A stretch of DNA of 64,000 bases, from contig NZ_CP017943.1 in the NCBI RefSeq assembly GCF_002764115.1, positions 434,001 through 498,000 on the forward strand, read 5' to 3'. The notes below the pieces were generated by a model, which worked only from the letters and a program-made list of their open reading frames with translations, did no database searches and was not told the DNA's origin. The stretch is from Phyllobacterium zundukense (GTDB lineage Bacteria; Pseudomonadota; Alphaproteobacteria; Rhizobiales; Rhizobiaceae). A program made the position numbers and the translations under genes. Of the stretch, positions 39,688-63,084 are shown in pieces. Position 1 is the stretch's first letter. Every line of letters starts with the position of its first letter.

Positions 39688-39718
39688 GAAGCTTAATGAA
39701 GAAAGGAAGCGCTGCAAA

Positions 39719-39755
39719 GGAAAAAGGCCCCCAAACGTTGCCGTCGTGGAAGCCT
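39719..39755 (-). terminator. Intrinsic terminator of the antisense RNA
   Basis: On the minus strand AGGCTTCC pairs with GGGGGCCT over eight base pairs including two G-T pairs, with a 15-base loop, followed by a run of T. The hairpin also forms the loop that would contact the repC messenger. Confidence 0.75.
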
Positions 39756-39770
39756 CTCTCTTAGTGTGAC
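39719..39770 (-). ncRNA. Counter-transcribed antisense RNA in the repB-repC gap
   Basis: All repABC plasmids studied encode a roughly 50-base antisense RNA between repB and repC that limits RepC synthesis and sets incompatibility. Here a minus-strand promoter (39777-39805) would start transcription near 39770, and a rho-independent terminator ends it near 39719, giving about 50 bases. The RNA is complementary to the repC leader. Confidence 0.8.
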
Positions 39771-39776
39771 AACCAG

Positions 39777-39805
39777 AGAATCGCATTTCCTCGAATCCCA
39801 GTCAA
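39777..39805 (-). promoter_or_regulatory. Promoter of the antisense RNA
   Basis: On the minus strand there is a -35 element TTGACT (39805-39800) and a -10-like GATTCT (39782-39777) separated by exactly 17 bases. The position fits an antisense transcript that starts just downstream at about 39770. Confidence 0.7.
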
Positions 39806-39865
39806 GGCTTTTTGGCACCGTTTTTGGTGAGCGGCTTTCTTTTGCCTCTTAGAAGGTGAAGAAAA

Positions 39866-41080
39866 ATGCAAAATGGACATGTTACGACGCCCTTTGGGCG
39901 GCGGCCGGTGACGCTTGCCCTTGTGAAACGACAGATCGCCACGAAGGAAATCCAGCCTGGCAAGTCGGCGGACAAATGGAAGATATTTCGCGACGCGTCG
40001 GAGGCCCGTTTGCTACTCGGGCTCCAGGATCGCAGCCTGGCAATACTTGATGCGCTTTTAAGTTTCTATCCGGAAAACCAGCTACGCGGTGATACCCCGC
40101 TCGTTGTGTTCCCATCCAACGCTCAGCTGATGCTACGTGCGCACGGTATAGCGGGCGCCACGCTCCGCCGGCACCTCGCATTGCTCGTCGAAGCGGGGCT
40201 GATAGTGCGTAGAGACAGCGCCAACGGCAAACGCTACGCGCGAAAGAACAAAACCGGTGAGATCGAAACAGCGTTCGGATTTGATCTGTCACCATTGCTT
40301 ATGCGAGCTGATGAGCTTGCTGGAATGGCACAGCAGGTTGCCGCGGATCGTCTTGCATTAAGAAGGGCTAAGGAAAACCTTACGATATGTCGGCGCGACG
40401 TCCGTAAGCTCATCACAGCCGCGATAGAGGAGGGAGCAGACGGAGATTGGGCAAAAATCGAGTCCGTGTATGTGGAGCTGATCTGCCGTATACCCCGCTC
40501 GCCACGCCTCTCGGATCTGGACGAACTCCTGGATGAGATGCAGATGTTGCAGGAGGAAATCGTCAACACATTGGATTTGCAGAAAGAAGTAGAAAATAAT
40601 AGCACCAATGATGCCCAAAATGAACGCCACATACAGAATTCAAATACCGAATCCACCTATGAACTTGAACCTGGCTTTAGAGATTACCAGGGCGGACGGT
40701 TGAGCCAAACCGATGAGCGTGAGCGCGAACCGTTAAAGGCATTCCCGTTGGGAATGGTGTTGCGGGCTTGCCCCGAGATTGCTGTATATGGGCCAGGTGG
40801 AGAGATAAATAGCTGGCGAGACCTGATGGCTGCGGCGATCACCGTGCGCTCCATGCTCGGCGTCAGCCCATCAGCTTATCAGGAAGCTTGCGAGGTTATG
40901 GGACCAGAGAACGCGGCGGTGACAATTGCGTGCATTCTAGAGCGGGCAGGGCACATCAACTCGGCCGGCGGGTATCTGCGCGATCTCACGTCAAAAACGG
41001 AACGAGGCGAGTTTTCACTTGGAGCTGTTCTGATGGCGCTGCTTAGAACGCATGGGCTCGGCGAGATAGCAACTGGATAA
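39866..41080 (+). CDS. repC: Replication initiator RepC
   Basis: A 404-residue RepC, the initiator that opens the origin lying within its own coding sequence. The N-terminus (MQNGHVTTPFGRRPVTLALV) and the winged-helix part (LMLRAHGIAGATLRRHLALL, VEAGLIVRRDSANGKRYARK) bind DNA; the C-terminal part (SWRDLMAAAITVRSMLGVSP) is the family's second conserved domain. An A-rich leader precedes ATG 39866, with only a weak ribosome binding site, fitting antisense control of translation. The frame is intact. Confidence 0.95.
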   Translation: MQNGHVTTPFGRRPVTLALVKRQIATKEIQPGKSADKWKIFRDASEARLLLGLQDRSLAILDALLSFYPENQLRGDTPLVVFPSNAQLMLRAHGIAGATLRRHLALLVEAGLIVRRDSANGKRYARKNKTGEIETAFGFDLSPLLMRADELAGMAQQVAADRLALRRAKENLTICRRDVRKLITAAIEEGADGDWAKIESVYVELICRIPRSPRLSDLDELLDEMQMLQEEIVNTLDLQKEVENNSTNDAQNERHIQNSNTESTYELEPGFRDYQGGRLSQTDEREREPLKAFPLGMVLRACPEIAVYGPGGEINSWRDLMAAAITVRSMLGVSPSAYQEACEVMGPENAAVTIACILERAGHINSAGGYLRDLTSKTERGEFSLGAVLMALLRTHGLGEIATG

Positions 41081-44130: not shown

Positions 44131-45618
44131 TTACGCTTCTCTATCCTCATGCCCGACAGCCCGCGAAGGCTGGGTGTCGGTCTGTGAAAAACGCTCGCTT
44201 GTCGAGATCACGCGGAGCCGCGTTGTTGCCCGGGTAAGCGCAACGTACCAATCCTTAGGCGTCATTGTTTCTGCCGCGACAACAATCGCGCGGTCAAACT
44301 CAAGTCCTTTGACGAGAAGTGTGCTGCCGATACTCCGGTTCGCGAGACGTCGGCCAGCATGACGTATTCGGTTCTGGACCTCCCAGACAGACGCGCTCAG
44401 GGTCGGAAGTCGGCCAGCTGCCTTGGTTTGCAAGGCCGATTGCATGGCAAAAAACATCTCGCGCCGGTACAGGTAGGACCCCGGTCGGTCGTGCATTGCC
44501 TGAAGAAACGCGAGCATAGCCAATTCGCCGCCGTTCGAGATAACAGCGTCAGCCAAGGGAAAAAGGCTACCGAACTTAGCCTGGCCCAATCGGCGCCCTT
44601 TCTGCCGAGCATCGATGGCCTTCTCGAGCTCGGCCCTGTCGGCGCCCGTTGTGTATTTTGACACGAAGCCAAGAAGTGCCTTCAAACGCGCCTGGCCGTT
44701 CGAATTGTCGATGGACGTCGCCGCAGAATGTAGCGTCTTACAGCCGATGGCCTCAATATTTGCGAAACCTTGCTTGGCAAGCTTTTGGGCCAAGGATGAT
44801 CGCCGGTTCTCACTGGTGCTGTCTGCAATGACAATCAGATTGCCCAAGTCGTTTTCACTCATCGCATCGAGGCACTGTCCGACGATAATCGCCTGGTGAC
44901 GGGTGGGATCGGCCGGAAGCGCTGTCCAAGTGACGCATTTAGGCCGAGAACTCAGATCAATACCATTGTTCTGCTGAAGAGCAGTGCGGATATCGCCCAA
45001 CCATTCGGCCAATTTGCCGTTGTCGGCATTCTTCCAGCGCCAAGGTGTCAAAAGCTCGGCCGATCTGACAAAGGTCGGGAAGACATCAGCATCCCAGTCG
45101 ACGGGTTGCTGATTCCTGAAGTCGAAAATTGCCTGGAGCGGGTCGCCGAAGACGCACGTCGGCAGAAGATTAGCCAACCGGCTGACAACCTGGTGCTGCG
45201 AGCGGGTGCAATCCTGATATTCATCGACAAAACAGCCGCCATAGGAAGCAATCAGCACCCCATCGACGGCGCCGCTATCGAGAAGCCGAGCGCCAGCGAG
45301 ATACACGGCGTCCCACTCGGCGATTGTCGTTGGCACAGTAGCGAGGATACCGGAGCGTTGCGGAAAAGAGGCAGCAAAACGTAGGCACCAACCCGCGATC
45401 GTATCGATGCGATATTTGTCGCTGGAGATGCGGTGCTTCTTGAGGCGGCGCGTCAGTGCATCGACGCCCGCATGTGTGTGGGTCAGGATGAGCCGTCGCT
45501 TCTCGCAGATCGCGACGGCGCGTGCGATTTGCTCTGTCTTGCCGCAACCCGCTGCTGCAACGATGCTTCCGCGACGCACGCCCGCCGCAAGCCGCGCGAT
45601 GTCCTCATCATCGGCCAT
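44131..45618 (-). CDS. gajB: GajB-like UvrD/PcrA helicase (Gabija-type defence)
   Basis: A 495-residue superfamily 1 helicase: Walker A IVAAAGCGKTEQIARAV, motif Ia LTHTHAGVDALTRRLKK, DEXQ-type motif II CFVDEYQDCTRSQHQVV, motif III FGDPLQAIFDF, and motif VI WYVALTRATTRLRVIS. The length is almost that of the Bacillus cereus GajB (about 494). In Gabija the helicase partners the GajA nuclease and senses DNA ends or nucleotide depletion during phage infection. ATG 45618 overlaps the end of the GajA gene by 11 bases; the long upstream extension in this frame lies inside GajA and is not used. Confidence 0.88.
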   Translation of the reverse strand: MADDEDIARLAAGVRRGSIVAAAGCGKTEQIARAVAICEKRRLILTHTHAGVDALTRRLKKHRISSDKYRIDTIAGWCLRFAASFPQRSGILATVPTTIAEWDAVYLAGARLLDSGAVDGVLIASYGGCFVDEYQDCTRSQHQVVSRLANLLPTCVFGDPLQAIFDFRNQQPVDWDADVFPTFVRSAELLTPWRWKNADNGKLAEWLGDIRTALQQNNGIDLSSRPKCVTWTALPADPTRHQAIIVGQCLDAMSENDLGNLIVIADSTSENRRSSLAQKLAKQGFANIEAIGCKTLHSAATSIDNSNGQARLKALLGFVSKYTTGADRAELEKAIDARQKGRRLGQAKFGSLFPLADAVISNGGELAMLAFLQAMHDRPGSYLYRREMFFAMQSALQTKAAGRLPTLSASVWEVQNRIRHAGRRLANRSIGSTLLVKGLEFDRAIVVAAETMTPKDWYVALTRATTRLRVISTSERFSQTDTQPSRAVGHEDREA

Positions 45619-47338
45619 CGACCCAACCCCGCATCGCATAGATGCCCAAGGCGAGCGGCGTTTCTGCGATTTCTGCCATACAGGGACCGATGATGGCTGC
45701 CAGCTGTTCGCCGCGCGTAATGTCCTTGAACCAACTCTTGTCCTTTGCGACTTTGCCCAGTATGCGCCGGACTGCCGGCGTATCGCGTTCGGCGCCAAGC
45801 TTTGCATCCGTGACGGTGGGAAGATCGGCCGCTGACAATGCTCTGTCCATCACCGCCATGACGCTGTCTTGCCCGACGAAAGTAACGGCGAGTTTGATCA
45901 TGTCGCGCACGCCGTTCCAAGGCAAATCAAGGAATAACCGTTCCTCCGTGGAGCATTCTCCGGGCCATTGATGGACAATGGTGCCTTTTTCTTCTGCCCG
46001 CTTGAGCGCGTCGGGGTTGGGTGCCTCGTCGGAATCGAGGACGAGCAGCACCTCATATCCAAGGTCCCGCAGGTGCTCCGCCACAAGTGGCGCCTTGTCT
46101 TTGCCTCCACCATCGATGGCGACGACGCTCTGCAGGGCAAAAGAATCAAAGTCCGATGTTTGCCACCACTCATCAAGACCGCGCGCGAAACCCTGTTCAG
46201 TCCGACCCTCGCCAACGAGCACCTTGCGAGCGAGGAATGCCTCGGGCGTGCCCCGAAGGTGCTGCTGGGCAGTATTGATGTCCTTCGCGGTCGCAGCGAC
46301 CGACGCAACCGTGGTGATACCGGACGTAGAGCGAACGGCGAAAATATCAGCAGCAGTCAGTTCCCTGATAACGACAGGTGAATGTGTCGTGGCGAATATC
46401 TGAGGCTGGCCGCCATCTTCGTTCGATTTGGGTGTCTTGAGATATTTGAGAAGCCTCGCGACACGATGCGGCTCAAGGCCATGCTCGATCTCGTCGATGA
46501 TTGCTATGTGGGGAGGTCCGGCATCATGTTGGAGCGCGGACACGAGAAGACGTGCGGATCCAGTACCGAGCCGGCGTAGAGGCAGATTGCCGTCATGCAG
46601 CGAGATCCCACCCGACGTTATGCTGACGCCTTGCACGTCAAGTTCGGCGGTGAACTTTCCCCGAACCGGCACTGCGAAGAGTTTGCTCAGTTCTTCTGCT
46701 CGATCCACGGCCTTCTTGAAGACGCCCTGGTCGCCCGCCTTGAACGAGGTGCGGGCAGCGCGACCAGCCTCGGCAAGTTGAAGACTGAACCCTTCGCCGG
46801 CCTCACCGATCCGCGTGAGCACAGACGTTCGGCCCCACCCAAGATGTCTTTCAGCAAAGGGCCCGAGCCGATTGGTTGCCAACTGCTTGGCATCTTTGTA
46901 TCGCACGGTTGGCGAATCGCTCTCGGAGGCATCTATGCGATCGTTTTGGATTGACCAACGGGCTTCGAGCGATTGGTCGATGACAACCGTAATGGAGAGC
47001 GCCTCCTCCAATCCCGCCCCCGGCTCGTCGATGATCTTCATCTCGGCTTGATCCCAACCGCGAAGATGAAGGCCGTACCGATCCTCCGTCTTAAAGGAAG
47101 ATGGCAAGCCAGCTAACGTCACGGTGATCCTAATCTCTTTCTTGACATTCAGATCGTAGAAATCGCAGTCGTCGGCGAAGATGTATGAACGCGGATTGAG
47201 ACAAAGTTCGATTGCATCGAGAATAGTGGTCTTCGTCGAGTCTCTCGGTCCATTAAGGCAGTTCATGCCTGGTGCCGGTGCCCAGACCAGACTGTGTATG
47301 CCGCGGAAATTCTGTATCTCCAAAAAAACGATACGCAT
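45608..47338 (-). CDS. gajA: GajA-like OLD-family ATPase-nuclease (Gabija-type defence)
   Basis: A 577-residue OLD-family protein: N-terminal ABC-type ATPase (MRIVFLEIQNFRGI, P-loop NGPRDSTKTTILDAIELCL, Walker B PPHIAIIDEIEHGLEPHRVA) and C-terminal TOPRIM nuclease (ARKVLVGEGRTEQGF with the Glu, and EVLLVLDSDEAPNPDALKRA with the acidic DxD-like residues). GajA of B. cereus is about 578 residues. Odd: the P-loop has Thr-Lys where Gly-Lys is normal (DSTKTT), which occurs in some OLD relatives. It forms an operon with the helicase gene. Alternative: another OLD-helicase system rather than Gabija in the strict sense. Confidence 0.87.
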   Translation of the reverse strand: MRIVFLEIQNFRGIHSLVWAPAPGMNCLNGPRDSTKTTILDAIELCLNPRSYIFADDCDFYDLNVKKEIRITVTLAGLPSSFKTEDRYGLHLRGWDQAEMKIIDEPGAGLEEALSITVVIDQSLEARWSIQNDRIDASESDSPTVRYKDAKQLATNRLGPFAERHLGWGRTSVLTRIGEAGEGFSLQLAEAGRAARTSFKAGDQGVFKKAVDRAEELSKLFAVPVRGKFTAELDVQGVSITSGGISLHDGNLPLRRLGTGSARLLVSALQHDAGPPHIAIIDEIEHGLEPHRVARLLKYLKTPKSNEDGGQPQIFATTHSPVVIRELTAADIFAVRSTSGITTVASVAATAKDINTAQQHLRGTPEAFLARKVLVGEGRTEQGFARGLDEWWQTSDFDSFALQSVVAIDGGGKDKAPLVAEHLRDLGYEVLLVLDSDEAPNPDALKRAEEKGTIVHQWPGECSTEERLFLDLPWNGVRDMIKLAVTFVGQDSVMAVMDRALSAADLPTVTDAKLGAERDTPAVRRILGKVAKDKSWFKDITRGEQLAAIIGPCMAEIAETPLALGIYAMRGWVDGR

Positions 47339-48104
47339 TCTGTGCCCCTCTGGCTGACGCATATCGTCAGTCGATATCTAGCCTTCGTTTGACTGCAAAA
47401 GCACCTGGAATCAGTCTCACGTTTGCTAAAGCTATACCATCGAATAGAGACAGCCATCGTTTCGACAGCGATACTGATGGCCCAACGTAAAATCCATGCT
47501 CTTGGAGCACGTAAAGAAGGCCATACATGGCGCTAAACCCTGCGTTTCTATGATGCACTACTCATCGGCAAAGCCGCAGAAGCTTGCGCGGCGAGTTCCG
47601 CACAGATTTCGGCCGCCTCGACATTACCTGCGATCACCACAATCGCCTTGGCAATGAGTCTGCCGCAGCCGCACTGTCCTTGACGGTCGGCTGGCATCCC
47701 TCGGCCATATACCCTTTGTCTGCAGTAAGCAGTGTGTCCGTTTAGTCCAAACGGCGGACATGATCTGGAAGATCGACCTGTGGTTGTCTTGGTATGGCCT
47801 GTCCCTCGTGAACGAGTCTCGCTAATTTGATCGCAGGTTGGGGCATTGGCGCACCAGTCGTGCGCATTACAACGTCGATCTTTCGCGACCGGCGCTGACC
47901 GATACTCGCATTCAACCGATGAGCATCGCGCGACGAATCTAGCTGGCAAGCATCGCCGGATAGCTCCATTAGACTTTGAATCTCTTCCCTTTTTGCAACT
48001 TGCCATCATAGTGTTGTTGATGCGATTCGGCTCAGTGTCCAACTGCATCCTGAGCGTGATTTCATCGCGACCAGTTCGTGAAACAACTAAGATGGCGTGA
48101 TCAT
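47339..48104. other. Intergenic region between Gabija-like and Shedu-like loci
   Basis: About 0.77 kb of divergent spacer holding the promoters of gajA (left) and the Shedu gene (right). Several minus-strand frames are open between 47548 and 48048; one would give a 49-residue product beginning MPADRQGQCGCGRLIAKAIV, but it lacks a spaced ribosome binding site and I do not call it. No repeat or RNA gene recognised. Confidence 0.4.
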
Positions 48105-49544
48105 ATGGAAGTTAAACCGATCGTCTCCTTCACCACAGTCGCCGATGAGACGCCTGACGGCCTGCGCGTAGATTTGATGACGACGGATTTCGGCCTGGAA
48201 GAACTACACCTCATCGTTTCGCAAAAGGTCATCGAACGGGCTTTGGAGGTATTTCCGGGGTTTGAAATACCGGAAGCCCCGATTGTCCTTGCGTCATACG
48301 AGGAGGACAGCCGGACGCTTAAGACATTTCCCATCAAGACAGGCTTTAATCAGGAGTTTCTGAAGCCGAAATACTCCAAACTCCGCAGCATTACGGTTGA
48401 AGATGTTTATGCGCCGGGTGACCATGAAACCGGTCAATCTTACAATCTGGAAGACCTTCCATCCGGATTTGTGAGAGATCCTCGGTTCGGGTTTGGGTTG
48501 AATTATGACATCCGGCTTATTGCCCTCTCTATTGAGAAGATCGTCGGCGTCAACGAACTGTTGATCTCAAAACAAAAGGGACTTTCGAAAGATGGGAACA
48601 CCTTGCGAATGTCGCGAGGAGTGTTCGGCAAGATTCGCACAACTATGGGTCGACTGCATCGCAGTACTCTCGCCTTCGCGAACTCTCGTAAGTCGGACTA
48701 TATCGACCTCACTTTGACAGCCATGCTCGATCCCAAACATGAGGCCGATGAGGATGCGCGCGACATAGCATCCGACCTCGGGGAGTTGCTCGCCCAAAAG
48801 CTCGTCGGCAAATCCAAGACTGAGGACATGGCCAGACGCTCGGCAATAAAGAGGGTGCGCTCGTCAGTGAAGACAATAGCGGAGAAAGAGCCGGAGGAAC
48901 TTCTCGAACTTCGACGAGAAATCGAAACGGTCACTTTGGAAGAGCTCATTGAGCGGATGGAAAAGAAGATCAGGCAGAAAAGCCTCACTGAGCATGACTG
49001 GCAGGCATTCCTCACTAATAACTCATTCGTACTGGGGCTTGCGTTCGGCGTTCCCGCCGTTGTCTTCGAAGAGCAGGTTTCCGTTGGTGGCACCAAACTC
49101 GACGGTAGCGGTGGCAAACTTGCGGATTATGTTGTCAAAGCTGGTCTCTTCGGAAATCTCGCAATCATCGAGATCAAGACGCCCTTCGCCGATCTTGTTG
49201 ACAAGAAGGCCTATCGCGGTGAACTCCATGCCCCCACACGCGAATTGGCTGGTGCTGTAAACCAGGTGCTCGACCAACGATACCGCCTGCAAATGGAAAT
49301 CAAGTCGAAGAAGATCGATTCTAGGGAGTATGACGTATTCACCTACGCCGTGCAGTGCCTCGTGATTGCAGGCACCATACCGGAAAGTGAGCCGGAGCGA
49401 AAATCACTCGAACTCTTCCGCAACAATTTGCGAGATGTAATGATAATCACTTTCGACGAACTTCTGGCCAAGCTGAAGGCATTGCTGGCGTTCTTCAAAG
49501 AGCCGCCGAAAGCGGCAGATCCCCATAGAGCGGAACTCTTCTAG
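48105..49544 (+). CDS. sduA: Shedu-like defence nuclease SduA (DUF4263)
   Basis: A 479-residue protein. The C-terminal third is the Shedu (DUF4263) PD-(D/E)xK nuclease: SLTEHDWQAFLTNNSFVLGL, then the catalytic Asp in GGKLADYVV and the Glu-x-Lys in LAIIEIKTPFADLV, followed by REYDVFTYAVQCLVIAGTIP. The N-terminal 280 residues vary among Shedu proteins and are thought to sense infection; here they include TTDFGLEELHLIVSQKVIER and a predicted helical linker rich in Glu and Lys. Shedu acts as a single gene. ATG 48105 matches the protein start MEVKPIVSFTTV; an upstream frame start at 48078 is less likely. Confidence 0.87.
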   Translation: MEVKPIVSFTTVADETPDGLRVDLMTTDFGLEELHLIVSQKVIERALEVFPGFEIPEAPIVLASYEEDSRTLKTFPIKTGFNQEFLKPKYSKLRSITVEDVYAPGDHETGQSYNLEDLPSGFVRDPRFGFGLNYDIRLIALSIEKIVGVNELLISKQKGLSKDGNTLRMSRGVFGKIRTTMGRLHRSTLAFANSRKSDYIDLTLTAMLDPKHEADEDARDIASDLGELLAQKLVGKSKTEDMARRSAIKRVRSSVKTIAEKEPEELLELRREIETVTLEELIERMEKKIRQKSLTEHDWQAFLTNNSFVLGLAFGVPAVVFEEQVSVGGTKLDGSGGKLADYVVKAGLFGNLAIIEIKTPFADLVDKKAYRGELHAPTRELAGAVNQVLDQRYRLQMEIKSKKIDSREYDVFTYAVQCLVIAGTIPESEPERKSLELFRNNLRDVMIITFDELLAKLKALLAFFKEPPKAADPHRAELF

Positions 49545-50432: not shown

Positions 50433-53400
50433 TCAACCCAGCACAAGAGACGGTTTCATGCGTTCAGTGGCGTTTCGTGGGGAGTGTGGCGTATATACGT
50501 CCAGTTCGTGAATACGTACCGTTGGCACAACCTTCTGCGCGATCTCACAAAGGTGCCTGTGATGAGTGAGGTAAATCACCTGACCGATCTTCGACATCTC
50601 GGCCAGCAGGCGGAAGACTTCCTCCGACCGTGGTTCGTCGAACGTTTCCATGATGTCGTCGGCAATGAACGGAACGGATGGACGAACCTGGGCAAATTCC
50701 TGGTAACCAGCGAGCCGCAATGCGAGGTAGAGCTGGAACTGTGTGCCCGTGGACATGGCGTCTGACATTTTCGAGCCGCCCTGCCGCGGAACGCCAATGA
50801 GGATTTCCTTGTCTTTCTCAGGTTTGGCAGCGAGACCGGAATATTCGCCACGCGTGATCTGGCGGAATGCGTCCGATGCTCTTTTCATCATCGAGCTTCG
50901 GTGTCTGTCACGATAAAGATGCAATGCTTTCTCGGCGGCCGAGGCTCCAGTTTTTAGGCGCAGGTATTTTTGCGCCAGATCCTCAATTTCAAGGAGGATT
51001 GTCCGCCGCTGCAGCTCGATCCTGGCCACCGCGCCGTCGCCCCCGACCTGCTCAAGCCTGTCTTTCGCACGGGTCAGATCTGCAAAGAGCAGTTTTGTTC
51101 GCTCCTCAAGGTTATCGATCCTGTCGGATAGTTCGGCGGCTTCCATCTCGACCTCTGAAACGTTGACCTCGGCAAGGAGTGCTTCGGCTTCGCCGAATGT
51201 CGTGACACGTAACTCTCTCACGATCTGATCACTCAATTCTGCGAGACGGCGCTCCAACCGATGCTTTTCAGCGACCTGTTCCAGCTGGTTGCTGACATCG
51301 GACAATGTCTCGACGCCAAAGAAGGTTGTGAGCGCGGTCTTGCGGGCTTCATGCACTGCAAGCTCCTGCTCGAGCCCCCTCCGGGTCTCCGACATGCGCG
51401 CATGCTCATCCATCTTCATAGAATGGATTTGCTGTGCCCTTTGGCCGGCGTCATATCTTTTCGTGAGGCTTTCTGTCTCAGCGAGACATTGTGTCGGATC
51501 GGAGGTCTCGCCAAGGTGTTTCAGAATATCGCGGACTTCAGCCTGAAAAGCATTCCGATCGTTTTCCATGGTTGCGATGCGCTGCGCCATCTGATCGCGC
51601 TCACGCAAAGTGGCCGGCAGGTCGGCAAGCGCTTTGAGAATCTCGCGCACTTGCGCGACGGCCGGCGCGTTAGCACCGAACCAGGTTTTTGCAAGTGCAT
51701 CCTTCCAGTTGTCGTCCCAGAGTTTTGCTGCCTTATCAGCGTCCGTGAAATCTTGCTGCCGTTCAGCCAGCTCGCGTTGGCGTTCAAGAAGATTTGTTGC
51801 CGCAGTCGCTCTCTCGGCCCGCAGGCTGACGGCCCGGGACAAGTGTGTGCTGGCCGCTTGCATCAGCGCTGTTGCTGACAACGTTTCAACGGCCTCGACA
51901 CCGGCAACACGCATCGCTTCAACGAGCGCGGCGACTTCATTTCCAAATTCTGCCCTTGCCTGCGCGATGTCCTCGTCCACCTGTTGCAAAGCATTCCATG
52001 CGACAAGCGTTTCCTTACGCATGTTGCTCCAGCGCTCAAGTAGTGAGAGCCAATCCTCAACCGCCCCGTTAACAGGCAATTCGATGGCAAGCGGAGTGGC
52101 CGTGCGAATTCGGGTGGAGAGTTGCAAGCGTTCGGCGTCCGCATCCGCTAACAGTTCTTCTTCGCGTAGTATGGCCGCCGCGTGAACCGACAATGTTTGG
52201 GTCAACTGCCGCAGCTCTGCCAAGTCTCGCGATCGCGCCAGACGGGCTTCGTTGAGGTCGTCGTCCGTTCGCATTTTCTGTTCGAAAACTTGGGCCGTTG
52301 TTATGTCGAGATGCTCGAGATGCTCGTCCCAGGCCTTCGTCCGAGCCTCGCGTGATTGATGAGCCTTGGCATCATCGATCAATCCAGCTGCTGCCTGTAT
52401 CGCCTCAATGCGCGCTTGAGCATCGCGTTGCTGCGTAATCAGATCGCGCAGCCGTTCCTTGTGATCTCTGAGACGTTTTTCGATCAACAGCGCTTCGTTT
52501 CTCCACGATTCGATCTGCCGTGCCTCGGGAGGGGCAATAGCGTGGAGAGCTGTTCCATCTCCAGTCCACGGGCGCAGGTTGCTCAACAGATTTTCGCAAT
52601 TTCGCGCCAGCTGTCCGCGATCGCGTTCCGACACCCGCAACCTTGCCTGATGATCGCTGCTTTGCAGTCTGGTGAGTGCTGTTTCAAACGGCGCCGTTGC
52701 TGCTTGGTCTATCACTCCGCCAGTCGTTGCAATTTTGGCGTTTTCTTCCGCGGTTCGATCAACAAGCTGCTTCGCTCTCTTCAATTCGCGCGTTGCTGTC
52801 TGAAGCGTGGCGTCAATACCTGAACGCGTTTCAATGAGATCGCGTAACGCACCAATGAGAGAGGCAGGCAAAAGCAGCGCTTCTGGGGTCTTGTTGTCAG
52901 TCTGTTCAAGTGAAGCAAGGATGATTGAAAGGGCAGCTTCCTGTTCTGCCAGCGCCACGCGACGACGAGGCAGGTCTGTTTCAGCAGTTCGGAACCGCGC
53001 CCGTCCATCCTCCAATCCAAGTATGCGGTCGGCCATCGGCCCCAGCGGTTCGTCAACGTCGATGAAATCGATCTCCGCTTGCAAGCGGGCGAGGTCCTTT
53101 TCGATGCCCTCGATCTGCGTCTGGATCCTGGTCTGGTCTTTCGTCAGCTGAGGGAGCTCAGAAACCCAGTCTGTGGGCGGTCGGGGCAAGTCGGCATAGT
53201 CAACAAGTTGAGCCGTCAGGCGCTCATGCTCAGCAGCAAGGGGGAGGGCGCGCATAATCCTTGCAAGTTCACCATGTCTCGTCCTGCTGCTAGCAAGGTT
53301 GCCCATCTCTTCATCATAGGACGATTCAGCCTGTTTGTGCGTTGCAATCAGGGTCGAATAGGTGGAAGCGAAGGTATCGATCTCATCGCGCTGTGCCTTA

Positions 53401-53981
53401 AGATCGGCAAGCGTCTGTTTCAATTCTGCCAGCTGCGTGTTGCGTCCGCGCTTCTTGTGAATGAGGTTCGCTTCCTCTGCTGTTGCCGCCAAAGTTTGAC
53501 TGAGGCCGGCCAGACCCGCGCTTGCGGAAAACAGCAATTCGCCAAGATCTCCCTTGCTCTGGATGATGGCGTTTCCGCCGTCCTCCAGAGACCGCTCATC
53601 AAGCGAAAACATCGTGCGGTATGCGTCCCGGCTGAGACCTGCGAGCGGTGTGCCAAACAATGCCTCATTGACCGGCTGCCCGTGCTGGTCCAGTAGCGAA
53701 TTTGTCCGCTGCTTTATCCGGACAAGCTTGTGTTCGTGTCCGTCAAATTCCAGACAGGCGCCGATCTGCATTGCACTGTATTGGTGGAGAAAATTGAAGC
53801 GGCTGCGTTCCTCGATGCCGAAAAGCAAATCGAGATAGGCTGCAAAGGCCGTGGATTTGCCAGCCTCGTTCAGACCATAGACGATATGCAGATCCGGTGT
53901 TCCAGCAACTGGCTCGCCAAAATCGAGCGAGTAATCCGTGAACTTGCCATAACGCGTCAGCTCGAGTTTGCGTAGCCGCAT
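50433..53981 (-). CDS. yhaN: YhaN-like SMC/Rad50-type ATPase
   Basis: A 1182-residue SbcC/Rad50-like protein. The N-terminus (LRKLELTRYGKFTDYSLDFG) and Walker A (IVYGLNEAGKSTAFAAYLDL) join a C-terminal half with the signature region STGTQFQLYLALRLAGYQEF and Walker B VPFIADDIMETFDEPR, then LTHHRHLCEIAQKVV. Between them lie about 900 residues of coiled coil. With the YhaO-like phosphoesterase it should form an MR-type complex that processes DNA ends. ATG 53981 shares one base with the YhaO-like stop (TGATG), so the two are made together. In this setting it may act in defence, but a repair role is equally possible. Confidence 0.85.
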   Translation of the reverse strand: MRLRKLELTRYGKFTDYSLDFGEPVAGTPDLHIVYGLNEAGKSTAFAAYLDLLFGIEERSRFNFLHQYSAMQIGACLEFDGHEHKLVRIKQRTNSLLDQHGQPVNEALFGTPLAGLSRDAYRTMFSLDERSLEDGGNAIIQSKGDLGELLFSASAGLAGLSQTLAATAEEANLIHKKRGRNTQLAELKQTLADLKAQRDEIDTFASTYSTLIATHKQAESSYDEEMGNLASSRTRHGELARIMRALPLAAEHERLTAQLVDYADLPRPPTDWVSELPQLTKDQTRIQTQIEGIEKDLARLQAEIDFIDVDEPLGPMADRILGLEDGRARFRTAETDLPRRRVALAEQEAALSIILASLEQTDNKTPEALLLPASLIGALRDLIETRSGIDATLQTATRELKRAKQLVDRTAEENAKIATTGGVIDQAATAPFETALTRLQSSDHQARLRVSERDRGQLARNCENLLSNLRPWTGDGTALHAIAPPEARQIESWRNEALLIEKRLRDHKERLRDLITQQRDAQARIEAIQAAAGLIDDAKAHQSREARTKAWDEHLEHLDITTAQVFEQKMRTDDDLNEARLARSRDLAELRQLTQTLSVHAAAILREEELLADADAERLQLSTRIRTATPLAIELPVNGAVEDWLSLLERWSNMRKETLVAWNALQQVDEDIAQARAEFGNEVAALVEAMRVAGVEAVETLSATALMQAASTHLSRAVSLRAERATAATNLLERQRELAERQQDFTDADKAAKLWDDNWKDALAKTWFGANAPAVAQVREILKALADLPATLRERDQMAQRIATMENDRNAFQAEVRDILKHLGETSDPTQCLAETESLTKRYDAGQRAQQIHSMKMDEHARMSETRRGLEQELAVHEARKTALTTFFGVETLSDVSNQLEQVAEKHRLERRLAELSDQIVRELRVTTFGEAEALLAEVNVSEVEMEAAELSDRIDNLEERTKLLFADLTRAKDRLEQVGGDGAVARIELQRRTILLEIEDLAQKYLRLKTGASAAEKALHLYRDRHRSSMMKRASDAFRQITRGEYSGLAAKPEKDKEILIGVPRQGGSKMSDAMSTGTQFQLYLALRLAGYQEFAQVRPSVPFIADDIMETFDEPRSEEVFRLLAEMSKIGQVIYLTHHRHLCEIAQKVVPTVRIHELDVYTPHSPRNATERMKPSLVLG

Positions 53982-55249
53982 CACTGTAGCTCCCTTGCGG
54001 GAGCTTTGAGGCGGGCGATGATGTCGTCACCACTTTGCGACATCAGATCATCGACGAAGGCGTCGAATTCAAGTTCGTTGTTTCCCGCAAACTTGCGACT
54101 TTCAGCCGGCAAATCGTCGAGGAGATCCTGGACCATCAGCCGGATGTCTTCGCGAAAGCCGTGGGAGGTCATAACCTCCGTCTGCATCAGCTCGCCAAGT
54201 TCAACCAATGGATCGGCGACGGCGAAGGTTTGGAGCAGGTCGGCTGGACGGACACCGAGCTCGATCTTTTCCACCCAGGTTCGGCCAATGCCTTGTGCGC
54301 GCTGTTCGGCCTCCGCCTGCAGCAAATCCAGGTCACGACGAAGACGCCAAGCCAGCGGCGTGCTGCCGATAAGTTTCAGGCGACCGACGAGATGCTCCGA
54401 CCGTGTCCGATCGCGCTGCTTAACAAGGGCATTTTCGATACTGCTGACAACGTCCCGCCACTCCTGAATATCCGTCACATCAACGGTCAGACGTTCGAAT
54501 TGAGCAATACTGGTCAAGCGCTCTTCGACGGTGATGGAACGATCATCGCCTATGGTCACCAGGGAAACGGTTTTCTCGCCCGCCTCGTTGATATCACGGC
54601 CCTGCGGCATTCCCGGCATAATAACCGTTTTTTGCCCGAGGTGATGCGACCGCAGATGAATATGACCGAGAGCCCAATAATCGAAACCGGAAGCATGAAG
54701 ATCAGCGACGTTGCATGGTCCATAAGGATCATGGCCGGAAGCACCGGCAAGACTCGTATGCATGATCCCGATATTTACGCCATCCGTCACAGGCGGTCTG
54801 TATTTCGGCAACAGATTGTCTGGTGCATGGGGTTTGGCAAAGCTCAATCCATGGATGACGATGTTCAACCCGTTGTGTGGCAGTTCGATAGCTTCGGCCC
54901 GAGCGCCAAATATCTTCACCGACGGTGGCAGCAGAAGTTCCTGCGTTATCTTGGACAACGCATCGTGATTGCCGCGGATCTTGTAGACGTTGATATCTGC
55001 CTCATGCAGCCGCTGCATCTGCGTTGCTAGAAACCGGGCGGTTTTCATGGAGGTCTGATCGCCGTCATAAAGATCGCCGGCGATGATCAAGGCGTTGACC
55101 TGTTCTTCTAGGCAAAGATCCACGACAGCAATGAGTGCCTGACGCGTGGCATCGCCGATCAAACTGGCTAGGTCCGGATCCCGAAGCGATAATGAACGCA
55201 AAGGCGAGTCCAGATGGATGTCAGCGGTATGGATGAACCGAAAAGCCAT
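53981..55249 (-). CDS. yhaO: YhaO-like metallophosphoesterase (SbcD/Mre11 type)
   Basis: A 422-residue nuclease with the calcineurin-like metal motifs in order: RFIHTADIHLDSPLRSL (DxH), ALIIAGDLYDGDQ (GDxxD), KIRGNHDALSK (GNHD), GIMHTSLAG and YWALGHIHLRSHH (GHxH). All five metal-binding blocks are present, so it should be active. It is the partner of the YhaN-like ATPase. ATG 55249 has AAGGA upstream; the frame extends 14 codons further but without support. Confidence 0.88.
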   Translation of the reverse strand: MAFRFIHTADIHLDSPLRSLSLRDPDLASLIGDATRQALIAVVDLCLEEQVNALIIAGDLYDGDQTSMKTARFLATQMQRLHEADINVYKIRGNHDALSKITQELLLPPSVKIFGARAEAIELPHNGLNIVIHGLSFAKPHAPDNLLPKYRPPVTDGVNIGIMHTSLAGASGHDPYGPCNVADLHASGFDYWALGHIHLRSHHLGQKTVIMPGMPQGRDINEAGEKTVSLVTIGDDRSITVEERLTSIAQFERLTVDVTDIQEWRDVVSSIENALVKQRDRTRSEHLVGRLKLIGSTPLAWRLRRDLDLLQAEAEQRAQGIGRTWVEKIELGVRPADLLQTFAVADPLVELGELMQTEVMTSHGFREDIRLMVQDLLDDLPAESRKFAGNNELEFDAFVDDLMSQSGDDIIARLKAPARELQ

Positions 55250-55451
55250 GGATCCTTTAATGGAGTGAGAACAGATCGAGCTGCAATACATCGCACGTCA
55301 CAACCAGTGCGTCACGCGTGCAGAGACAATTCACAGGAGTTTTCAGTGGATGGCGAAAGCGAGCTACGCGAATAAGGCGCGTGCAAGATGTGAACTGATA
55401 ACCGATGATCTGTATATTCTACCCAAAGGGTGGCAGGGGGAGACGGGGCTA

Positions 55452-60834: not shown

Positions 60835-61513
60835 GAAGCCTCGCTCTCTAACTTCATGCTACTATGAACGGTGTCGCGTCTAAAGGCTTTTGATCACGCG
60901 TCCACACACTTCGCGCCTAGGATAGACTAGACGGGTGGCTTGCCGTTCAGCAGTTGCGAACTCATTATACGTCTAAAGGTAAATATAATATCGACCGTGA
61001 ACAAAGCAAGAACAATGTACTATATTGGTTTTTCCAGGAGGTCGCTCTGTTTTGGGGCCAACGGCAGTGGCAATTCAATGGGCTGTCCTCGACTTCATTG
61101 AAGATGTCGAATGCGAAGTGGCCGTCCTGAACTTGAAAATTCGACGCACCGGTAAAGTCGACCGGTTTGAAGCTCGAAGATTGCCGGTTTTCCTCTGAGC
61201 TGACGGCTATGATTTTCCGTAGTCATACCTCTTTGCGTGTGGCAGACACTATTCGCAAGGCATTGGACATTTGGGGATGGACCGCCGAAGAATGATTTTC
61301 ATGGCGCGGGTTATAACCGTTGTAAACTCATACACAGATATGTATATCAAGGGTGATTTCAGCAATAGGCTGCGGCTCACGGCTCTGCGGACTGTACGAT
61401 CTTCGGGTTGTCCTGATGTACGAGCTTCGGGAATATCCTATTCTCTCAGTTGACGACTCCATGGTTAAACATGGGTTGCAGTTTGCTGAAGTCTCGCAAT
61501 GGAGGATTCGCCC
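60835..61513. other. Non-coding stretch upstream of the reverse transcriptase locus
   Basis: Nearly 0.7 kb without a credible gene. It carries the ietA promoter on the left and the reverse transcriptase promoter on the right. Features in the right part are two near-identical 15-base copies (see the repeat entry) and a small CCATG/CATGG hairpin at about 61462-61477. Defence reverse transcriptases often use a structured RNA encoded just upstream, so an RNA gene here is plausible but not shown. Confidence 0.45.
61393..61431 (+). repeat. Short direct repeat upstream of the reverse transcriptase
   Basis: TGTACGATCTTCGGG (61393-61407) recurs as TGTACGAGCTTCGGG (61417-61431), 14 of 15 bases identical with a 24-base period. 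Each copy contains the same GA-x-CTTCGGG segment, in which the CTTCGG tetraloop sequence is often found in stable RNA hairpins. It may be part of a non-coding RNA or a regulatory site. Confidence 0.5.
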
Positions 61514-61693
61514 ATGAACAAAATTCAAAAGCGTCTCGACCTTGCTGTAGCAGTGCTGACTGTATTGTACCTCTCTACCGAGACTATCAATGCCGTTTTT
61601 GATCTGCTCAGCAAGGTTGTCAACTATGCCCGTAATGTTCGAAAACTTTCTTTATTCTTATTGGAAAAACGGCAAGCCAATATATGCCCCTAA
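61514..61693 (+). CDS. 59-residue protein overlapping the reverse transcriptase gene
   Basis: A short frame with an excellent ribosome binding site (GGAGG, eight bases before ATG 61514). The product, MNKIQKRLDLAVAVLTVLYL then STETINAVFDLLSKVVNYA, is mainly one or two helices, the first fairly hydrophobic and possibly membrane-associated, with a basic tail. Its last 68 bases overlap the start of the reverse transcriptase gene in another frame, so the two are likely translationally coupled. No family recognised. It may only be a leader that drives translation of the enzyme. Confidence 0.55.
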   Translation: MNKIQKRLDLAVAVLTVLYLSTETINAVFDLLSKVVNYARNVRKLSLFLLEKRQANICP

Positions 61694-62471
61694 TCCCTTC
61701 GGGGAAAAGCTTGGTATCGATATCAAGCGTCAGGTCAACAAGGCTTACAAGTTCGACAGCTTTATCTACCATTTCAAGGACGGCTCTCACGTCGTCGCGC
61801 TCCATAAGCACCGAGCCAACAATTTCTTCTGTCGCATCGACATCGCTCGCTTTTTCTACAACGTCCAGCGCAACCGGCTGAAACGCGTCCTCAAGGACAT
61901 CGGTATCTTCCGTGCCGAATATTATGCGAAGTGGTCCACCGTGAAAAACCCGTTCGCGGGTGGCGGCTATGTCATACCTTACGGATTTGTGCAGTCGCCC
62001 ATCTTGGCAACGCTCGTTCTGGCGAGGTCTGCTATTGGCGATTACCTGCGTGGCCTCGATCCCACGATTACCGTTTCCGTCTATATGGACGATATATGCC
62101 TGTCGGGAAACGATGAAGCCGCGCTGCAGGTCGCGTTCGATGGCCTGCTGGCGGCGGCGCACGTGGCAGGATTTGAGCTGAACGACGACAAGACACGTCC
62201 TCCGGCCCCGCAGATCGACATTTTCAATTGCACCCTTGAGAACGGCAAGACCGAAGTGCTACCCGAGCGCATTGACAAATTTTATGCTGAGTTCAGAACG
62301 GGCGCTGGTGAAGCATCATTTGAAACCTACTGCGATATCGTGAAATCGCACACATGGCGCATTGGTGCCCGCAAGAGGCGTCGGCGCTTGCATTTCATGT
62401 CTAAGCGGAAAGCAGCACTTGTTGCAGCCACTGCTCCAGTCGTTCCCCCTCCGGCGCCGGAAGCTACTTGA
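61626..62471 (+). CDS. Reverse transcriptase of unknown group (defence type, not retron)
   Basis: A 281-residue reverse transcriptase. Motif A is FCRIDIARFFYNVQRNRL, motif B GFVQSPILATLVLARS, motif C VSVYMDDICLSGND with the catalytic Asp pair, and motif D/E GFELNDDKTRPPAPQIDIFN. The N-terminal region has FLYSYWKNGKPIYAPNPFG. The catalytic box is YMDD rather than the YADD of most retrons, and no VTG motif follows, so a retron is unlikely; no maturase or endonuclease domain suggests a group II intron either. It resembles the unknown-group or DRT reverse transcriptases. The C-terminus is very basic (RIGARKRRRRLHFMSKRKAA), probably binding RNA. I take ATG 61626, with AAGG upstream. Confidence 0.85.
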   Translation: MPVMFENFLYSYWKNGKPIYAPNPFGEKLGIDIKRQVNKAYKFDSFIYHFKDGSHVVALHKHRANNFFCRIDIARFFYNVQRNRLKRVLKDIGIFRAEYYAKWSTVKNPFAGGGYVIPYGFVQSPILATLVLARSAIGDYLRGLDPTITVSVYMDDICLSGNDEAALQVAFDGLLAAAHVAGFELNDDKTRPPAPQIDIFNCTLENGKTEVLPERIDKFYAEFRTGAGEASFETYCDIVKSHTWRIGARKRRRRLHFMSKRKAALVAATAPVVPPPAPEAT

Positions 62472-63084
62472 GCTTTCCGGTCATCGAACCGGTGAGTAGA
62501 CCGAACACAAATCCCAGCACGCTGGTGATAGTCTTCTCCGCAAAGGTCTTTTTGGCCTTGTCCTGTGTGAAAAGGTACAGCAGGCAGAACGCCACGAGTA
62601 CGAAGGCCACCAGCCCGAGCAGGCTGTATACGATGGTATGGTCCTGCTCTCTCTCCGCCGTCGTCTTGGTTTCCTGCGCGCTTGCCGGTGCAAAGAAACT
62701 GAACGACAATCCCACGTCGGCGGTCTTCTCTACGTAGGGCACTTGTTTCAGGGTGGCTTGAGCTTCCGCAATGTCAGTTTTGAGGTTGCCGACGAGTTTG
62801 GACGCCTCGGGATACGTCGCCACGATCTGCTCCAGCGACAGCAGGCTAGCGTTCGACTGCTCCAGCACACCCAAGACGCGCTTATAATCCTCGTTCGGAA
62901 CCTGCCATACCTTCTCGGTCTCCACTGGACTGACGCGGTGCCATAAGCCCAATACCGAACCGCTCAACAGCGTAACAACCGCACCGGTCGCAATGCCTGA
63001 CGTCAGCAACCGCAACAGCGGATACAATCGGGCGAGTGGCGTGTCGTTGGCAGCCTCTTCTTTTGGTTTCTCTGGTTCATTCAT
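62464..63084 (-). CDS. Membrane protein convergent with the reverse transcriptase gene
   Basis: A 206-residue protein with an N-terminal acidic stretch (MNEPEKPKEEAANDT), a membrane segment (LTSGIATGAVVTLLSGSVLG), a periplasmic helical part with repeated Leu-rich segments (NASLLSLEQIVATYPEASKL), a second membrane segment (IVYSLLGLVAFVLVAFCLLY) and a third near the C-terminus (SVLGFVFGLLTGSMTGKLK). ATG 63084 has GAGGG upstream. Its stop overlaps the reverse transcriptase stop region by eight bases. No family recognised. The tight convergence suggests a long-standing association, but it need not be functional. Confidence 0.6.
   Translation of the reverse strand: MNEPEKPKEEAANDTPLARLYPLLRLLTSGIATGAVVTLLSGSVLGLWHRVSPVETEKVWQVPNEDYKRVLGVLEQSNASLLSLEQIVATYPEASKLVGNLKTDIAEAQATLKQVPYVEKTADVGLSFSFFAPASAQETKTTAEREQDHTIVYSLLGLVAFVLVAFCLLYLFTQDKAKKTFAEKTITSVLGFVFGLLTGSMTGKLK

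Follow-up and report, generated by a model that had tools for sequence, protein, structure and literature searches.

A candidate retron-related anti-phage operon of structured RNA, membrane peptide and short reverse transcriptase in Phyllobacterium zundukense

The window analysed here, 64,000 nucleotides (nt) within a 586-kb contig of Phyllobacterium zundukense (NZ_CP017943.1, positions 434,001 to 498,000), carries a short reverse transcriptase (RT) gene preceded by a small open reading frame (ORF) and a structured RNA. With moderate confidence we read these as a tripartite, retron-related anti-phage operon, in which the small ORF would encode a membrane-peptide effector and translation of the RT would be coupled to that of the peptide. 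The set looks like an undescribed relative of retrons. Sequence comparison supports conservation of the three-part order, selection acting on the peptide, the helices P1 (closing the RNA) and P3 (within the small ORF), more weakly a long-range helix (LR), and the defence context.

The RT gene (61626-62471, forward strand, as are the small ORF and the RNA elements described below) encodes 281 residues with a YMDD motif and matches RVT_1 at 59 bits. Its start was placed at ATG 61626, which is common to close relatives; the earliest ATG in the frame was rejected as the start. A protein search found at least 207 relatives (best 8000 candidates scored; best 120 of the 207 listed), a pattern scan of genome contigs from 84,980 species gave 45 loci, and nine more came from viral contigs and eight from plasmid records. 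This short RT family spans alpha-, beta- and gammaproteobacteria, plasmids and viral contigs; a strong match (E <1e-50) was present in 9 of 394 genomes from the bacterial family to which the window belongs. The counts that follow derive from 92 loci, of which 19 were first set aside as duplicates, distant or short matches and six had no full RT ORF (L004, L050, L054, L056, L058, L079). From the 67 loci kept, a further eight were excluded (L003 for an uncertain start; L015, L031 and L091 for a broken or missing RT 5' end; L052, L055, L074 and L075 as duplicates) to give 59, among which near-copies such as L009/L012 and L016/L092 remain. RT length was 244-281 residues in 54 of the 59, and YxDD, PYGF and the region-X histidine were invariant across 58 aligned RTs. 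The very basic tail remarked on in an earlier, sequence-only reading of this DNA is a feature of the rhizobial group and not a general one, being missing in members of roughly 245 residues.

In a tree of 76 RTs (19 family members, 25 retron-group RTs and 32 remaining RTs) the family was monophyletic (ultrafast bootstrap, UFBoot, 100; Shimodaira-Hasegawa, SH, support 0.998), as were the family and retron-group RTs together (UFBoot 100, SH 0.984) and the 25 retron-group RTs alone (UFBoot 98, SH 0.778); 11 of these 25 were labelled by PADLOC and the others by position. The family forms its own clade, sister to the retron-group RTs and not inside them, a relationship limited to the present tree sample because RTs of the unknown-group (UG) and Abi types are thinly represented, with one Drt9 RT (L133) and one UG17-like RT (L119) confirmed, both among the remaining 32. 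The closest solved chains to the RT are retron RTs (Eco8, E 3.1e-8). As the sequence-only reading had noted, retron motifs are absent: the 26 rows of alignment A1 read ALHxH (AMHxH in one) in place of NAXXH in region X, only the last H being kept, and in 19 family rows the triplets at the VTG position, which opens region Y, are DIF, DVF, SAF, EAF and similar ones. Among the best 25 of 41 PADLOC matches to the RT were a generic RT model (54.8 bits), 22 retron-group models (46.3 bits at best) and weaker UG-type models (Drt3a 21 bits, UG33 18.2 bits), with the UG17 model not among them; the best models on the 11 sampled retron RTs score 234-752 bits. Membership in DRT10, DRT9 or another UG class was rejected on PADLOC scores and tree position. 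A separate Drt5 search gave no match in 200 genomes or in controls, and the matches of a Drt3a search were all below cut-off.

The small ORF (61514-61693; ATG 61514, 59 codons) follows a GGAGG Shine-Dalgarno site (61501-61505) and overlaps the RT gene by 68 bases. The sequence-only reading had pointed out this ORF and its ending inside the RT gene; the comparison adds that it is a conserved membrane component and part of a conserved RNA fold. An ORF lies at the same place, terminating in or near the RT start, in all 59 loci counted, and was also present on reading in L004, L050, L054 and L056 (L058 and L079 were left out). Its length is 41-109 codons (41-68 in 53 of 59). Because open frames were what was picked, their lack of stops is in part built in; over those 105 nt, however, stops interrupt the two alternative frames in 59/59 and 57/59 loci. 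AGGAGG is matched at 4-6 of its 6 positions in every locus, starts having been chosen partly by that score. The best 19-residue hydropathy reaches at least 1.6 in 49 of the 59 peptides, and does so within the first 38 codons in 47 of 59 true frames vs 0 of 59 in each other frame, while net charge ahead of the hydrophobic segment is positive in 55. Across 62 equal-length pairs of peptide genes, which are not independent, the ratio of nonsynonymous to synonymous change (dN/dS) is below 1 in 60, with 401, 311 and 603 differences at codon positions 1, 2 and 3; all six differences between L037 and L046 fall at third positions. An AlphaFold (AF2) model gives a single helix over residues 3-57, with a mean predicted local distance difference test (pLDDT) score of 75.5, about 90 at residues 11-30 and about 60 past residue 40. 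The peptide's tyrosine stands in NY in 51 loci and in SY in five (56 of 59 together), the exceptions being two loci with NC and one frameshifted; the codon of the preceding asparagine shows AAC/AAT changes in gamma-type loci. The peptide has no family match above cut-off in Pfam, PADLOC or NCBIfam and none to SLATT models. Judged from these sequences, the 59-codon ORF is a real gene, conserved and under purifying selection. It is also easily missed by annotation, and six of six annotated plasmid records do not list it (in a gene table known to be incomplete).

Between IetA and the small ORF (60835-61513) there is no long gene. The sequence-only reading had called this stretch gene-free and proposed an RNA in it; it does contain a structured RNA of 139 nt (61355-61493), backed by covariation in its closing stem P1. 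This stem comprises P1a (61355-61364 paired with 61484-61493) and P1b (61368-61373 paired with 61478-61483), with an AUA bulge between their 5' strands. A search for stems that end shortly 5' of the small ORF's ribosome site, which rewarded a TA(A/G) motif, found a stem followed by TA(A/G) in 39 of 59 loci, the stems found enclosing 125-192 nt; P1a is followed by TAGGC, TAACC, TAGCC or TTAGC, and AGC occurs in some loci, not all. In alignment A2 (32 loci, from alphaproteobacteria and one viral contig, L076), the 16 pairs of P1 are formed in 89.4% of cells, 84 cells are changed on both sides vs 30.3 (standard deviation, sd, 4.3) in shuffles, and the covariation score is 0.531 vs 0.271 (sd 0.017) in shuffles and at most 0.137 in slid versions. 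A motif-anchored test on 32 alpha-type and 21 other loci gave a mean own-locus pairing longer than in all 2000 permutations, and 61355-61640 folds better than 200 of 200 shuffles (z -3.75). RNA model R1, the alignment of which includes the window locus, scores 258.6 bits in the window. Its independent strong matches are L004 (179.6 bits) and L091 (226.1 bits), L050, L054, L056, L002 and L092 being near-copies of model rows and not independent; weak matches just 5' of the RT occur in L033, L044, L036 and L038 (E 4e-6 to 8e-5). A known RNA family was rejected as the identity of this RNA, Rfam giving no match at curated score there (best in the region, E 2.4). A candidate promoter, TTGTAA-17 nt-TATATC (61320-61348), lies 6 nt 5' of the RNA; its boxes match 8 of 12 consensus bases and similar boxes were seen by eye in close relatives, and the promoter scan did not list it.

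The second helix, P3, joins early with late codons of the small ORF, pairing ACCUUGCUG (61539-61547), near the peptide start, with CAGCAAGGU (61609-61617), which includes the RT's AAGG. In A2, 287 of 288 cells are paired (99.7%), 32 are changed on both sides vs 10.8 (sd 2.1) in shuffles, and the score is 0.378 vs 0.157 (sd 0.016), with slid versions at most 0.118. An equivalent, GCC..GUUAA:UUAAC..GGC, is found in alignment A3 (22 loci, from beta- and gammaproteobacteria, viral contigs and one alphaproteobacterial metagenome-assembled genome, L033), where 96.6% of cells are paired, 20 are changed on both sides vs 5.4 (sd 1.6) in shuffles, and the score is 0.439 vs 0.182 (sd 0.023), with slid versions at most 0.133. 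Each of the 54 loci places the 5' strand in the same codon phase. The span is constant at 70 nt across the 32 A2 loci, and in A3 it ranges from 60 to 132 nt and is a multiple of three in every locus. Conservation thus acts on the stem as RNA structure and on the loop as protein sequence; by the same comparison, the small-ORF stretch is both a gene and a structured RNA.

The third helix, LR, joins the upstream RNA to the RT leader, pairing AGUUGACGAC (61448-61457), within the upstream RNA, with GUUGUCAACU (61616-61625), which abuts the RT start codon on its 5' side. As LR crosses P1, the RNA is a pseudoknot when both helices form. In A2, 97.2% of LR cells are paired, a U-A pair becomes C-G in 5 of 32 loci, and the score is 0.196 vs 0.160 (sd 0.012), a value reached in 0 of 500 shuffles. 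A shifted equivalent was found in A4, the 15 loci left from A3 once those with LR strands out of register were removed (L033, L034, L037, L038, L039, L046, L078); here 91.7% of cells are paired, eight are changed on both sides vs 2.6 (sd 1.2; 0 of 500 shuffles), and the score is 0.285 vs 0.200 (sd 0.024). In a duplex test on 52 loci, the two strands gave -27.9 vs -25.2 (sd 0.48) kcal/mol, a difference matched in 0 of 2000 permutations. In the window P3 and LR are adjacent, and between them they mask AAGG and the spacer preceding AUG. The strands of the two helices overlap in gamma-type loci, where the two would be in competition.

The locus sits in a defence island, in agreement with the sequence-only reading. 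IetA and IetS lie upstream of it, and the window also holds Gabija (GajB 44131-45807, 532 bits; GajA 45608-47362, 648 bits) and, in the same island, Shedu (SduA 48078-49544, 471 bits). A scan of neighbours in 22 relatives, covering 105 of 170 picked ORFs, gave PADLOC matches (E 1e-15 or better; best 25 of 155 families) to Druantia, Argonaute-SIR2, HerA, Lamassu and type IIG restriction, each in one or two ORFs. L087 is flanked by the combination known from IetAS, S8 peptidase plus ATP-binding protein, and L085 by an AbiEii-type gene. The genome has a second full copy of the system (RNA, 59-codon ORF and 251-residue RT) on a different contig; this copy and the recurrence in three proteobacterial classes extend the sequence-only reading.

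We propose that the RT would bind the P1-closed RNA and would copy part of it into complementary DNA (cDNA), and that the resulting complex of RT and RNA, with or without cDNA, would hold the co-expressed peptide inactive. A phage that disturbed this complex would free the peptide, which would damage the inner membrane and so stop the infected cell. Because in the window the RT's AAGG and the bases from there to AUG lie within P3 and LR, ribosomes would have to translate the peptide before the RT could be made.

Several observations weigh against parts of this proposal. The stem search returned a wrong-looking stem in several other loci, six of 59 loci have no motif to anchor the P1 control, and the ten P1 pairs that show two-sided change are unremarkable as a count, equalled in 57 of 500 shuffles. 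LR is weaker than P1 and P3: in A2 just six cells are changed on both sides (matched in 135 of 500 shuffles), in A4 versions slid by -1 and +1 score 0.185 and 0.211, not far below 0.285, and in beta-type loci the helix is out of register. The permutations of the LR duplex test ignore relatedness, which inflates their outcome, and for many individual loci the true pairing does not surpass that with mismatched partners. P3 covers the RT's AAGG only in A2 loci, the window included, and in the 22 A3 loci its 3' strand starts 25-51 nt 5' of the RT start; because it misses that start, P3 may serve the RT-RNA complex and not coupling. The dN/dS ratio exceeds 1 in two of the 62 pairs, one involving the frameshifted L027, and the PADLOC matches among neighbours come without a matched background set. 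In the tree, the family node is an unrooted split of 100 that was printed as 62 after re-rooting, which we take to be a shifted label. As retron motifs are absent, retron chemistry cannot be assumed. The peptide, finally, could be a leader or an anchor and not an effector.

As a regulatory leader only, the peptide would matter through its translation, which would open the P3/LR fold, and the RT and RNA would defend alone, like a two-part defence-associated reverse transcriptase (DRT) system. The covering of the RT ribosome site by P3 and LR in the window and the overlap of the small ORF with the RT start fit this account. We consider it rather unlikely, as selection acts on the amino acids of the peptide, a single hydrophobic segment is kept despite widely different sequences while loop lengths change by whole codons, and P3 falls short of the RT start in the 22 A3 loci.

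An ordinary retron of unrecognised type is distinctly unlikely in our view. Here P1 would be the closing stem of retron RNA, known as a1/a2, branching would take place at the UAGG bulge region, the RT would make multicopy single-stranded DNA and the peptide would be the toxin. The likenesses are real: the RT adjoins retron RTs in the tree as their sister and keeps the region-X histidine, a closing stem supported by covariation surrounds an RNA directly upstream, and a likely effector lies within the operon. In contrast to retrons, the family has neither NAXXH nor VTG, no invariant AGC follows the 5' arm of the RNA and the G that comes after UA varies (several loci read UAACC), retron models score far below their values on sampled retron RTs, the family is a clade outside the 25 retron-group RTs, and a single-span peptide is encoded between RNA and RT and here folded into the RNA structure. 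One source gives NAXXH, VTG and a priming G in the AGC of msr as retron hallmarks, the N of NAXXH varying in two of 16 verified retron RTs (PMC6868368); in another, NAXXH is found in 59% and VTG in 47% of retron and retron-like RTs, many being without the motifs (PMC4244168).

Alternatively, the peptide may be a structural partner of the RT, either a membrane anchor or a protein primer whose tyrosine could carry the cDNA, the latter suggested by the shortness of the RT core. NY or SY is kept in nearly all loci, the asparagine codon varies synonymously between AAC and AAT in gamma-type loci, and protein-primed DNA synthesis is reported for DRT9 and DRT10. We see this as a distant prospect: two loci have NC and one is frameshifted, and in most A2 loci the tyrosine codon overlaps the RT start codon, which gives its conservation another cause. 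More speculative still is a system in which one RNA is both messenger and RT substrate, the peptide gene being the P3 loop knotted by LR to the upstream RNA, with cDNA made from the peptide gene or on the peptide tyrosine, so that phage infection would yield a membrane-tethered DNA-peptide product. We regard this as a long shot; if true, it would add to retrons and DRTs a third form of RT immunity.

Control by the RT-RNA pair of a different effector, the three-segment membrane protein encoded convergently with the RT (206 residues, 62464-63084, reverse strand), is hard to credit, since only 9 of 67 loci carry an intact gene (the search for it not extending to the system's second copy in this genome), for all that the 8-base overlap with the RT stop is identical in all nine. 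The gene and its overlap are as the sequence-only reading gave them, and its role as a core part was rejected: apart from the window, eight loci have it intact and two have fragments. As the intact gene is confined to one rhizobial subclade, we take it to be a clade-specific accessory. A search with the protein found two proteins, and it has no family match above cut-off in Pfam, PADLOC or NCBIfam. The sequence-only reading had looked to homologous loci without these neighbours and without upstream conservation; in that comparison the small ORF and the upstream RNA survive and the convergent gene falls.

The proposed operon also shares features with other systems. Toxins of type I toxin-antitoxin systems are small and hydrophobic, with a basic start, one helix and a structured messenger, and the peptide resembles them in size, basic start, single hydrophobic helix and RNA structure on its messenger; unlike them it is linked to an RT, and an antisense RNA gene was neither seen nor looked for. 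DRT2 and DRT9 likewise pair an RT with its own structured RNA nearby, whereas the window RT is shorter and closer to retrons, and the Drt9 RT falls outside the clade of the family plus retrons. DRT10 consists of a UG17 RT, a SLATT protein and a noncoding RNA (ncRNA), in the order ncRNA, membrane gene, RT and with all three required (PMC12632851). That order and the defence setting are alike here, whereas the UG17-like RT stands elsewhere in the tree than the family and the window-type peptide, mostly of 44-68 residues, has one hydrophobic segment and no SLATT match. No paper describing this RT family was recognised in the literature covered, most subscription papers lying outside it and the main retron and UG classifications being unseen.

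Degraded copies were also observed. L027 has a frameshifted peptide and an interrupted RT, as do its near-copies L074 and L075, and L091 combines a broken RT 5' part with an RNA region that scores 226 bits. A third, weak R1 match in the genome of the window (G000:C3:95878-95986, E 0.0015) is possibly chance or a remnant. The RT family occurs on nine IMG/VR viral contigs (L076-L084), and prophages may therefore be carriers of the system. Elsewhere in the window, an AAA_27/SMC-like ATPase of 1183 residues lies beside a calcineurin-like phosphoesterase in the defence cluster (50433-55291), resembling an SbcCD-type pair, and Rfam matches to S-element and p42d-type antisense RNA (39714-39868) are taken as signs of a repABC replicon.

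The locus represents a separate lineage of RTs that comes with an RNA and a membrane peptide of its own, sister to retrons in this sample and carried by plasmids, viral contigs and the chromosomes of three proteobacterial classes. A stretch that is both gene and covarying RNA makes the coupling between RT and effector testable through mutation and counter-mutation, and the short RT with its compact RNA may be of practical interest as a DNA-writing enzyme. There is a modest chance that the system represents a new kind of RT immunity.

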